Origin: Plantibacter flavus
Lineage (GTDB): Bacteria; Actinomycetota; Actinomycetes; Actinomycetales; Microbacteriaceae
Direction: 5' to 3'
DNA length: 64,000 bases
NCBI RefSeq assembly: GCF_900177615.1
Contig: NZ_FXAP01000001.1
Coordinates: 1,122,825 to 1,186,824 of the forward strand
Part shown: positions 3,390 to 62,287 of the stretch, piece after piece
How positions within the stretch are numbered: position 1 is the first letter of the stretch
Layout: every line of letters begins with the position of its first letter
Notes under the pieces: generated by a model
What the model saw: only the letters and a program-made list of their open reading frames with translations
What the model was told of the DNA's origin: nothing
Databases searched by the model: none
Translations under genes and position numbers: made by a program

Positions 3390-3420
3390 TGTCGCAGGCT
3401 GCGGCTAGCCTGGTGGAATG
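3390..3420 (+). promoter_or_regulatory. rarA promoter: TGTCG element, 8-nt spacer, -10 hexamer, leaderless start
   Basis: TGTCGCAG (3390-3397) is followed by exactly 8 nt and then TAGCCT (3406-3411), with the ATG of rarA 6 nt later. The layout matches the RecA-independent DNA-damage promoter TGTCRGTG-N8-TAnnnT at 6 of 8 upstream positions with exact spacing. The short -10 to ATG distance predicts a leaderless mRNA. Confidence 0.5.
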
Positions 3421-26827: not shown

Positions 26828-26975
26828 TCGGGCCCGTTCCCAACACCGCGACGCCTTGCGTCACGGACGGACGACGTGTCCGAGGCCTCGACTAGAGTGA
26901 TGAACGGTCGGGCCCCGGAACACCGCGACGGCCGATCCCTCCACCATCGCACCACCACCTCCGACGGGAGACCGC

Positions 26976-51834: not shown

Positions 51835-52257
51835 TCAGCCGGTTGGCGCGTCCTTGATGAGGTTCGTGATGCGGATCGTGGAACACCGTCGTCCCTGCTC
51901 GTCGGTGACGGCGATCTCGTGCACGGTGAGCGAGCGACCGAGGTGGATCGGGGTGCAGACACCTGTCACGATGCCCTCGGTGGCGGACCTGGTGTGCGTC
52001 GCGTTGATGTCGATGCCGACCGCGAGTTTGCCCGGGCCCGCGAAGAGGTTGGCTGCCATGGAGCCGAGGGACTCGCCGAGCACGACGTACGCCCCACCGT
52101 GCAGCAGCATCGCGGGTTGGGTGTTGCCCTCGACGGGCATGGTGGCGACGGATCGCTGCACCGTGAACTCGGTGAACTCGATGCCCATCTTGGCGGCGAG
52201 TGCGCCGCTGCCCCTCGTCCGCAGGAACTCGAGTGCGTCGTCGGTCTCGTTCGTCAT
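51835..52257 (-). CDS. Hotdog-fold thioesterase (PaaI-like)
   Basis: A 140-residue protein starting MTNETDDALEFLRTRGSGAL. NTQPAMLLHGGAYVVLGESL followed by GSMAANL is the PaaI-type active-site helix, and VGIDINATHTRSATEGIVTG the next strand. Such enzymes hydrolyse acyl- or aryl-CoA thioesters; the substrate is unknown. ATG 52257 has GAAGG about 6 nt upstream; an earlier in-frame ATG would add 12 residues and lacks a good site. It diverges from polA, whose start is 56 bp away. Confidence 0.88.
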   Translation of the reverse strand: MTNETDDALEFLRTRGSGALAAKMGIEFTEFTVQRSVATMPVEGNTQPAMLLHGGAYVVLGESLGSMAANLFAGPGKLAVGIDINATHTRSATEGIVTGVCTPIHLGRSLTVHEIAVTDEQGRRCSTIRITNLIKDAPTG

Positions 52258-52284
52258 GTCCACCTTCGGATCGGGCCTGAGCCG

Positions 52285-52315
52285 TGTCGGCACCGGCTTG
52301 TAGGCTGGGCGCGTG
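52285..52315 (+). promoter_or_regulatory. polA promoter: TGTCG element, 8-nt spacer, -10 hexamer, leaderless start
   Basis: TGTCGGCA (52285-52292), exactly 8 nt, then TAGGCT (52301-52306), then 6 nt to the polA GTG. It matches TGTCRGTG at 6 of 8 positions with the exact spacing of the RecA-independent DNA-damage promoter. Confidence 0.5.
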
Positions 52316-54973
52316 TCGGAATCAGAAAAGCCTACCCTCCTCGTCGTCGACGGCCACTCGCTCGCATTCCGGGCGTTCTACGCCCTGCCGGTCGACAGCT
52401 TCCAAACCCGCGACGGTCAGCACACGAACGCCATCCACGGCTTCATCTCCATGCTGATCAGCCTGCTCAAGAACGAGAACCCGAGCCACATCGCCGTGGC
52501 GTTCGACATCTCGCGCCGTTCCTTCCGCACCCGCGAGTACCCCGAGTACAAGGGCACGCGCGGTGAGACCCCGGCGGAGTTCAAGGGACAGGTGCCGCTG
52601 CTCGAAGAGGCGCTCAAGGCGATGAACATCACGACGATCAGCAAAGAGGACTACGAGGCCGACGACATCCTCGCCACCCTGGCCAAGCAGGGCGCTGAGG
52701 ACGGCTTCCGCGTGCTCGTCGTCTCCGGCGACCGCGACACCATCCAGCTCGTCACCGACGACGTCACCCTGCTGTACCCGTCGAGCCAGGGCGTCTCCGC
52801 GCTCACCCGGTACGACGGCGCCAAGGTCTTCGAGCGGTACGGCATCCGGCCCGAGCAGTATCCGGAGATCGCAGCGCTCGTCGGCGAGACGAGCGACAAC
52901 CTCCCGGGCATCCCGAAGGTCGGCGAGAAGACCGCCGTGAAGTGGCTCAACCAGTTCGGCTCCCTCGAGCAGATCCTCGAGCGTGCCGACGAGATCACCG
53001 GCAAGGTGGGGGAGAGCCTCCGCGAGCACAAGGAGAACGCGGTCCGCAACCGCCGCCTCAACCGACTCCTCACCGACGTCGAACTGCCCGTCGGACCGAA
53101 GGACCTCGAACGCCGACCGATCGACGCGGACGCGGTGGCGGCCGTCTTCGGGCGGCTCGAGTTCCGCACGCTGCTCGATCGGGTCCTCAAACTCGACGGA
53201 CTCGAGGCCAACACGGATGTGTCCGCACCGCAGGCCGGCGGCGTGGTCATGCCACCGCAGAAGGAGCTGCTCGACGAAGAGCTCGAGGCGTGGATCACCC
53301 GTGCCGTCGCCGCACATCCCGCCGGGATCGGTCTCCACCTCGACCTCGACGGAGGCCTCCCGGTCGCAGCCGGCCTCGCGACCCCCACGGAGATCGTCTC
53401 GCTCGCCTGGCGTCCCGGTGAAGCCGACTACGCCCCGCTCGAAGCGTGGTTGGCGAGCGACGCCCCGAAGATCATGCACGACGCCAAGCCACAGCTCCAG
53501 GCGGTCACGCGCGCCGGCCTGACGGTCGAAGGACTCGGCTACGACACCGCGGTCGCCGGTTGGCTCCTGCGTCCGAGCGGCGGCGACAAGACCATCGCCG
53601 ACCTCATCACGCGCTATCTCGACGAGACGATGCCCGTCGCCGACCCGAACCAGCTCGTCCCCGAGACCGACCCCGTGGGTGCCGGCGGCACCGCCTGGTA
53701 CGCCCTCCGTGTCGCCGAGGCCACCCGCACGGCACTCGACGCCGGATCGCTCGGCGTGCTGCTCGACATGGAGCTGCCGGTCCTCCAGGTGCTGGCCCAC
53801 ATGGAGCTGACCGGCGTGACGGTCGACCACGGCATCCTGAGCGGCCTGTCCGAGCAGCTCGGCAACCGGGCCGCGGAGCTCGCGAGCAACGCCTATGCGG
53901 AGATCGGCCGAGAGGTCAACCTCGGATCACCGAAGCAGCTGCAGGAGGTCCTCTTCGACCAGCTCGCCATGCCGAAGACACGCGCCAACAAGACGGGCTT
54001 CTCGACCGACGCCGGCGCCCTGGCCGATCTCCAGGAGAAGAGCCCGCACCCGTTCCTCGGGCTCCTCCTCGAGCACCGCGATGCGACGAAGCTCCGCCAG
54101 ATCGTGGAGACGCTCGACAAGGCGATCACGCCCGACGGCCGCATCCACACGACGTACGTGCAGATCGGGACCAGCACCGGCCGGATCTCCTCGACCGACC
54201 CGAACCTGCAGAACATCCCCGTGCGCACCGAGGAAGGACGCCGCATCCGCGCCGCCTTCCAGGCCGGCTCCGGGTACGAGACCCTGCTGACCGCCGACTA
54301 CTCGCAGATCGAGATGCGGATCATGGCGCACCTCTCCGGCGATGCCGGCCTCATCGAGGCGTTCAAGTCCGGCGAGGACCTCCACCGCTTCGTCGGCGCA
54401 CGCATCTTCGGCGTCGCCGCCGAGGACGTCACGCCCGCGATGCGCAACAAGGTGAAGGCGATGTCGTACGGACTCGCCTACGGCCTGAGCGCGTTCGGGC
54501 TCTCGAAGCAGCTGCGGATCTCGAGCGCTGAGGCGAAGCAGCTCATGATCGACTACTTCGAGCGCTTCGGTGCGGTCCGCGACTACCTGCGCAACGTCGT
54601 CGAGCAGGCGAAACTCGACGGCTACACCGAGACGATCTTCGGTCGTCGCAGACTCTTCCCCGAACTCTCGAGCCCCAATCGACTGGTCCGGGAGAACGCT
54701 GAACGCCAGGCGCTGAACGCCCCGATCCAGGGTTCGGCCGCCGACATCATGAAGCGCGCCATGATCGGCATCGAGTCCGAGCTGCGGTCCGAGTCCCTCA
54801 GCTCGCAGATGATGCTGCAGGTGCACGACGAACTGATCTTCGAGGTCGCCGAGGGGGAGTGGGACGCCCTGGAGCGCATCGTGCGAGCACAGATGGCGGG
54901 TGCCGCCGAACTGTCGGTACCGCTGGAGGTCCAGATCGGCCGCGGCCACGATTGGGACGCCGCAGCCCACTGA
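52313..54973 (+). CDS. polA: DNA polymerase I
   Basis: An 886-residue repair and Okazaki-fragment polymerase. The 5' nuclease domain (about 1-295) starts TLLVVDGHSLAFRAFYALPV and has the helix-hairpin-helix PGIPKVGEKTAVKWL. The middle domain (about 320-480) resembles a 3'-5' exonuclease but lacks the DxE of the active motif (here IGLHLDLDGG), so proofreading is probably absent, as in mycobacteria. Polymerase motifs: A, LTADYSQIEMRIMAHLSGD; B, RNKVKAMSYGLAYG; C, MLQVHDELIFE. The GTG follows a -10 by 6 nt, so the mRNA is probably leaderless. Confidence 0.97.
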   Translation: MSESEKPTLLVVDGHSLAFRAFYALPVDSFQTRDGQHTNAIHGFISMLISLLKNENPSHIAVAFDISRRSFRTREYPEYKGTRGETPAEFKGQVPLLEEALKAMNITTISKEDYEADDILATLAKQGAEDGFRVLVVSGDRDTIQLVTDDVTLLYPSSQGVSALTRYDGAKVFERYGIRPEQYPEIAALVGETSDNLPGIPKVGEKTAVKWLNQFGSLEQILERADEITGKVGESLREHKENAVRNRRLNRLLTDVELPVGPKDLERRPIDADAVAAVFGRLEFRTLLDRVLKLDGLEANTDVSAPQAGGVVMPPQKELLDEELEAWITRAVAAHPAGIGLHLDLDGGLPVAAGLATPTEIVSLAWRPGEADYAPLEAWLASDAPKIMHDAKPQLQAVTRAGLTVEGLGYDTAVAGWLLRPSGGDKTIADLITRYLDETMPVADPNQLVPETDPVGAGGTAWYALRVAEATRTALDAGSLGVLLDMELPVLQVLAHMELTGVTVDHGILSGLSEQLGNRAAELASNAYAEIGREVNLGSPKQLQEVLFDQLAMPKTRANKTGFSTDAGALADLQEKSPHPFLGLLLEHRDATKLRQIVETLDKAITPDGRIHTTYVQIGTSTGRISSTDPNLQNIPVRTEEGRRIRAAFQAGSGYETLLTADYSQIEMRIMAHLSGDAGLIEAFKSGEDLHRFVGARIFGVAAEDVTPAMRNKVKAMSYGLAYGLSAFGLSKQLRISSAEAKQLMIDYFERFGAVRDYLRNVVEQAKLDGYTETIFGRRRLFPELSSPNRLVRENAERQALNAPIQGSAADIMKRAMIGIESELRSESLSSQMMLQVHDELIFEVAEGEWDALERIVRAQMAGAAELSVPLEVQIGRGHDWDAAAH

Positions 54974-60110: not shown

Positions 60111-60141
60111 TGTCGGTGGTCCTCCGTAGACTCGGAGCATG
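60111..60141 (+). promoter_or_regulatory. uvrB promoter matching the RecA-independent DNA-damage (PafBC-type) motif
   Basis: TGTCGGTG (60111-60118), 8 nt, TAGACT (60127-60132), 6 nt, ATG. This is a full match to TGTCRGTG-N8-TAnnnT, the mycobacterial RecA-independent damage promoter. No LexA box is seen. Confidence 0.7.
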
Positions 60142-62236: not shown

Positions 62237-62260
62237 GACACCGCTCGGGAGTCCGGTGTC
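62237..62260 (+). terminator. Possible hairpin between uvrB and uvrA
   Basis: GACACCG (62237-62243) and CGGTGTC (62254-62260) pair perfectly around a 10-nt loop. The 3' arm overlaps the uvrA TGTCGGTG element, so it may be a uvrB terminator or a chance effect. Confidence 0.35.
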
Positions 62261-62287
62261 GGTGGTGCTGCGTAGACTCGAAGGGTG
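62257..62287 (+). promoter_or_regulatory. uvrA promoter matching the RecA-independent DNA-damage (PafBC-type) motif
   Basis: TGTCGGTG (62257-62264), 8 nt, TAGACT (62273-62278), 6 nt, GTG. Identical upstream and -10 elements and spacings to the uvrB promoter. Confidence 0.7.

Follow-up and report, generated by a model that had tools for sequence, protein, structure and literature searches.

A putative PafBC-type (RecA-NDp) promoter in front of polA in Plantibacter flavus and its uneven occurrence among relatives

Introduction

The PafBC-dependent promoters of mycobacteria (RecA-NDp, P1) combine TGTC(R)G near -26 with a TANNNT -10 hexamer ten nucleotides further on and have no -35 element; they serve repair genes, in genomes that encode pafBC. 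The available excerpt of PMC5656591 prints the consensus as tTGTCRgtg-8nt-TannnT, where lower case marks the weak positions, and that of PMC8151990 gives TGTCGG-N10-TA-N3-T for M. tuberculosis, accompanied by TGTCAG and TGTCAC forms. In the part of PMC11804915 at hand, single-stranded DNA activates PafBC, which is placed between sigma domain 4 and the promoter, with PafB reading the -26 motif. Conservation of the motif has been doubted for Streptomyces venezuelae, which, as an initial motif search suggested, does not share the PafBC motif of M. smegmatis (PMC9380542, excerpt). The whole word polA does not occur in the main text of PMC8151990, and a literature search on PafBC, Microbacterium and DNA damage found no functional data for Microbacteriaceae.

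Here we describe a site in front of polA of P. flavus, a member of this family, which resembles the mycobacterial promoters in all these features but differs from them in two: the start codon follows directly behind the -10 hexamer, suggesting a leaderless transcript, and positions 7-8 of the element are CA and not tg. We read it as a putative PafBC-type promoter, to which we assign a probability of roughly 0.8.

Results

Layout of the polA promoter

We analysed a stretch of 64,000 nucleotides from contig NZ_FXAP01000001.1, referred to here as the window. Direct reading of positions 52285-52315 gives TGTCGGCA-N8-TAGGCT-N6-GTG, in which GTG is the start of polA (Table 1); the product of this ORF scores above the cut-offs of NF004397 (989 bits) and TIGR00593 (903 bits), and the named polA loci closest to it come from three Plantibacter records (95-99% identity). 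This bears out the polA layout put forward in an earlier note on the same DNA: the element equals TGTCGGTG at 6 of 8 positions, the spacing is exact and the GTG lies 6 bases past the hexamer. From the position of the start codon we infer that the polA mRNA is leaderless. If the G of GTG is taken as +1, the element extends from -28 to -21, and the positions fit the PafBC arrangement outlined in the excerpt of PMC11804915, because TGTC then occupies -28 to -25 and the hexamer -12 to -7.

The site contains the core TGTC R G - N10 - TANNNT as TGTCGG-N10-TAGGCT and is thus an exact match to the core printed for M. tuberculosis in the available part of PMC8151990. The weak consensus positions are not matched at polA, which has g before TGTC and CA at 7-8; we did not take these positions (t before TGTC, tg at 7-8) as defining a PafBC-type promoter. 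Between 51760 and 52500 no sigma-70-type hexamer pair was found, that is, no canonical -35 hexamer at polA. TGTCGGYA-N8-TANNNT matched once in the 64 kb, compared with a mean of 0.00 over 100 shuffles, and a chance match at polA was ruled out by these shuffles together with the spacing and letter controls given below. The element is intergenic, since the likely ATG of the divergent thioesterase gene is 56 bp from the polA GTG.

Table 1. Features of the polA region and companion sites, in window coordinates
Feature	Position	Strand	Basis
rarA site, TGTCGCAG-N8-TAGCCT-N6-ATG	3390..3411	+	pattern search
Divergent hotdog-fold thioesterase gene	51835..52257	-	profile match, start comparison
Putative PafB-contacted -26 element of the polA promoter, TGTCGGCA	52285..52292	+	sequence reading, chance test, conservation
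polA -10 hexamer TAGGCT (TANNNT)	52301..52306	+	sequence reading, conservation
polA, DNA polymerase I, 886 aa, GTG at 52313	52313..54973	+	ORF and profile matches
uvrB site, TGTCGGTG-N8-TAGACT-N6-ATG	60111..60132	+	pattern search
uvrA site, TGTCGGTG-N8-TAGACT-N6-GTG	62257..62278	+	pattern search

Companion sites in the window

The pattern TGTCR-N11-TANNNT matched the window four times (shuffle mean 0.50; 4 reached in 1 of 100 shuffles), and these matches, which begin at the positions listed for rarA, polA, uvrB and uvrA in Table 1, are the same four sites that the earlier note had grouped under a common layout; in all of them the start codon lies exactly 6 bases past the -10. The polA, uvrB and uvrA products scored above NCBIfam cut-offs, with uvrA cut by the window end, and rarA was identified by MgsA_C (PF12002) and AAA domains. 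A second rarA-like gene is present elsewhere in the genome (G000:C6:92891-94189), 50-61% identical to that of the window in two pieces.

Another gene in the window is priA. Its ORF and the end of the metK ORF overlap, and the pattern search of the window gave no TGTCR-N11-TANNNT match near priA. At 26877-26898, 77 bases upstream of metK, which is followed by priA, there is TGTCCGAG-N8-TAGAGT, a weak, possible candidate site for a metK-priA unit that has a C at position 5 and lacks a leaderless start.

Sites across the genome

TGTCR-N11-TANNNT occurs 49 times in the whole genome, against 20 for the reversed pattern. When an ATG or GTG was required 6 or 7 bases behind (TGTCR-N11-TANNNT-N6/7-RTG), we obtained 27 sites, compared with 5 for the wrong spacings N7-N10 combined; the TGTCN version returned 33 sites (reversed control 5), and its 6 TGTCC sites are excluded from the 27. 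Clear DNA repair or replication genes follow 15 of the 27: xthA, dnaX, recQ, sbcD, radA, mfd, ligA, gyrB/parE, rarA, polA, uvrB, uvrA and the genes for a UvrD-type helicase, an SRAP protein and a DnaQ-type exonuclease. The other 12 precede genes without a clear repair role, ORFs without Pfam match or, once, no ORF. They comprise a SprT-like protein, kept out of the 15 despite a possible repair role, an epoxide hydrolase, a GntR regulator, an NmrA/DUF2867 protein (L010), an acetyltransferase, an NAD kinase (L045), a DUF1653 protein (L023), a protein with a DUF4379 match just under the cut-off (L014), three ORFs of 96-191 aa without Pfam match (L028 being that of 96 aa) and one place with a 6-codon ORF only. 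The NAD kinase was considered as the head of a recN operon and rejected as such; it was counted as non-repair because the gene behind it lies on the opposite strand and is not recN.

The earlier note had named an even spread of the relaxed motif over unrelated genes as the outcome that would speak against it. The matches concentrate at repair genes, both in the full set and without the window's four genes (11/23), and the share is 9/20 when exact TGTCGGTG sites are also removed. At an assumed 10% repair background the chance of these last two shares is 4e-6 and 6e-5, p-values which rest on an assumed repair-gene background of 2-10%.

Several observations accompany this set. The L023, L014 and L010 proteins are possible regulon members whose role is unassigned. 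At C2:609686 (L005, L259) a full TGTCGGTG-type leaderless site is followed by a 101-aa ORF without Pfam match, which is possibly a new damage gene or possibly no gene. Sites at other distances from the start were found for recA (122 bases), a PcrA/UvrD-type helicase (10), holA (22), clpX (33) and a ResIII-type helicase (8). The recA P1 promoter and the polA site have the same two elements at the same spacing; in P. flavus, the recA site reads TGTCGGTG-N8-TACCGT and stands at that distance upstream of the assigned ATG, whereas the polA site is 6 bases from its start.

Conservation of the polA site among relatives

We compared polA starts in a set of 80 loci which, with the window added and L095 removed, gave 80 usable starts, mostly from Microbacteriaceae and with near-copies included. 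TGTC-N12-TANNNT-N6/7-RTG was present in 56/80 loci, against 0/80 for each of 11 letter permutations of TGTC and 0/80 for each spacer of 8-11 and 13-16, and TGTC-N12-TANNNT was found at 0/279 starts of rpsA, the thioesterase gene, a response regulator and pyk in the same loci. Of 57 usable uvrB loci, 56 had the same pattern close to the start; in 26 of 39 usable uvrA loci it lay within 40 bases of the start, while rarA had it, with a start 6 or 7 bases behind, in 15 of 30 family loci, the window's included. Given the genome sites at repair genes, and conservation at polA set against controls of zero, polA is very probably a PafBC-type target.

These data also bear on the simplest alternative, an ordinary leaderless housekeeping promoter in which TAGGCT-N6-GTG does the work and TGTCGG matches by chance or without a regulatory role. 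Such a promoter would agree with the retention of TANNNT-N6/7-RTG in all 80 polA loci, the 24 without TGTC among them, but it leaves unexplained why TGTC recurs at one spacing in most loci and neither its permutations, the eight other spacings nor the control gene starts yield a single case, and why the element recurs in other families, so that we regard this explanation as unlikely.

PafB and PafC in P. flavus and its relatives

The P. flavus genome carries adjacent pafB and pafC about 53 kb behind the window, as tandem WYL genes whose WYL matches are at C10:1240537 and C10:1241549. A PafC-type HTH (HTH_PafC, PF19187, E 4.9e-33) is present in the second, and no PafB-specific model matched the first. 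Among the relatives, matches to both PafB and PafC were obtained in 41 of the 41 genomes searched, which include all 24 without TGTC at polA. In 80 order- and class-level genomes PafB was missing from 9 (BLAST at 1e-15); 6 of these 9 carry a pair of WYL matches separated by about 1 kb, for which reason their PafB has probably diverged, and the BLAST-negative genomes without such a pair are G132, G156 and G056.

A real element could nevertheless be read by a regulator other than PafBC, for instance ClgR, for which the excerpt of PMC5656591 reports recognition of the same promoter in M. smegmatis; besides pafB and pafC, three more WYL genes are present in P. flavus (5 PF13280 matches). The presence of PafB and PafC throughout the 41 relatives, and later literature that links the motif with PafBC (PMC8223512 and PMC11804915, both in excerpt), speak against another reader, which we judge quite unlikely.

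The divergent gene and SOS control

Beyond the nearer relatives, the polA layout was found in 33/50 order-level and 17/40 class-level genomes, with permuted elements reaching at most 1. Behind the element, 14 of the 33 order-level matches have CAT where a reverse start codon of the divergent gene could be, and the order-level set is therefore partly confounded; 19/33 order-level and 15/17 class-level matches are clean of such a CAT. In order-level loci such as L186, L187, L190 and L200, TGTCNGTCAT before polA resembles the reversed divergent-gene start ATG-ACC/ACT-GAC-A, and there some bases may serve both the promoter element and the start codons of two genes.

The CAT matches are what favours assigning the conserved TGTC to the divergent thioesterase gene, as part of its start codons or its promoter. 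In the window, however, the likely thioesterase ATG is 28 bp off the element, and among the nearer loci polA always starts 6-7 bases past the -10 while the gap between the divergent starts varies, which makes this assignment highly improbable. With the divergent gene's in-frame ATG falling short of the motif in 37 of 48 nearer loci (11 without), a coding artefact was ruled out for the window and most nearer loci, though not for some order-level matches. LexA/SOS control, which would suit polA as a repair gene, is just as improbable: a search of 52113-52330 for the GAAC-N4-GTTC-like SOS box with at most 1 mismatch found none in the polA promoter and a single 1-mismatch core at 52224, inside the divergent gene and about 90 bases upstream of the polA start, and the conserved element at polA differs from an SOS box.

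A polA form of the element

The PafBC-type element takes a particular form at polA, where full TGTCGGTG occurs in 3/80 loci and TGTCRG in 48/80. Position 7 is T in 3 of 40 distinct polA sites compared with 36 of 54 uvrB and uvrA sites (p = 3e-9, with rows that are not independent), and position 8 is G in 27 of the 40. The rarity of T at position 7 points to a lasting, gene-specific polA form in which positions 7-8 are nearly free. The weaker variant motif proposed earlier therefore holds as a gene-specific polA form, but not as a motif broader than the described consensus: it is not new, lying inside the consensus already printed in the excerpts of PMC5656591 and PMC8151990. The M. tuberculosis TGTCAG and TGTCAC forms and the polA site are relaxed forms of one element, the relaxation affecting positions 5-6 in the former (PMC8151990, excerpt) and mainly 7-8 at Microbacteriaceae polA. 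The wording TGTCGnnn probably admits too much: in the P. flavus genome, 14 of the 21 sites that have G at position 6 stand at repair or replication genes, and 1 of the 6 others does (rarA), a tendency (Fisher p = 0.06) according to which TGTCRG fits better.

Relatives without TGTC at polA

Of the 24 polA loci without TGTC, ten differ from it at a single base and the other 14 at two to four bases; given the ten near-matches, some may still work. All 14 usable Cryobacterium rows belong to the 24, and loci without TGTC are otherwise scattered over the polA tree, on which the TGTC state needs about 8 changes, at least 6 of them on starred branches, the least trusted ones of FastTree, the tool used; gain and loss are indistinguishable in these counts. 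We rejected loss of pafBC as the reason for the missing polA sites, as both genes were present in all the relatives searched. uvrB was readable in 20 of the 24 and kept TGTC in 19, the exception being Aurantimicrobium. In this organism (A. minutum, L125), which has a small genome and diverged PafB and PafC (43% and 41% identity), TGTC-N12-TANNNT is absent at polA, uvrB and uvrA, and the motif has perhaps changed.

If TGTC stands for control at polA, this control is dispensable, since 24/80 loci lack it although pafBC is present. Moreover, polA seems to enter or leave the presumed regulon through the -26 element alone, because the -10 and pafBC stay and the uvrB site nearly always does. At even odds, then, polA would be a switchable member of the PafBC regulon, with the -10 and the leaderless distance constant, the -26 element changing and pafBC staying.

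Breadth of the pattern in the class

In the 80 order- and class-level genomes the median number of TGTCR-N11-TANNNT-N6/7-RTG sites is 17, and that of reversed matches 1. The forward pattern is the more frequent of the two in 77/80 genomes, which indicates that it is spread through the class; the excess is weak or absent in 9/80, with none in G171, G073 and G106, and location at repair genes was examined in the P. flavus genome only. Two class-level genomes (G080 and G114; L144, L172) of 7.9 and 8.9 Mb contain 49 and 48 TGTCR-N11-TANNNT sites of the leaderless kind, with 1 reversed match in each genome, and their polA is preceded by TGTCAGTG-N8-CAGGAT-N7-GTG, where C replaces the first T of the -10. 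The class-wide counts, these two genomes included, bear on the doubt about motif conservation raised in the available part of PMC9380542.

Discussion

The start site, PafBC binding, damage induction and strength of the polA promoter are predictions from the DNA, and the following course of events would connect them. Single-stranded DNA derived from damage would bind the WYL domains of PafB-PafC, and active PafBC would join RNA polymerase with the housekeeping sigma factor, allowing it to use promoters that have TGTC(R)G at about -26 and a TANNNT -10 but no -35. Transcription of polA would begin at the G of GTG and give a leaderless mRNA, and Pol I, for gap filling after excision repair, would rise alongside UvrA and UvrB. 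The nearly free positions 7-8 may make polA respond less strongly than uvrA and uvrB. Basal transcription may need no more than the -10 and the start, and the -26 element could vary without touching either.

Pol I serves repair and replication in general and is often considered constitutive. Through a conserved damage-type promoter common to polA, uvrA and uvrB, gap filling would be coupled to excision. The pattern of presence and absence in close relatives makes it possible to test the PafBC element as a module and, if polA is indeed a switchable regulon member, constitutes a natural experiment on what damage induction of Pol I is worth; whether Pol I joins the response to damage would then be a setting that evolves easily and depends on a few bases.
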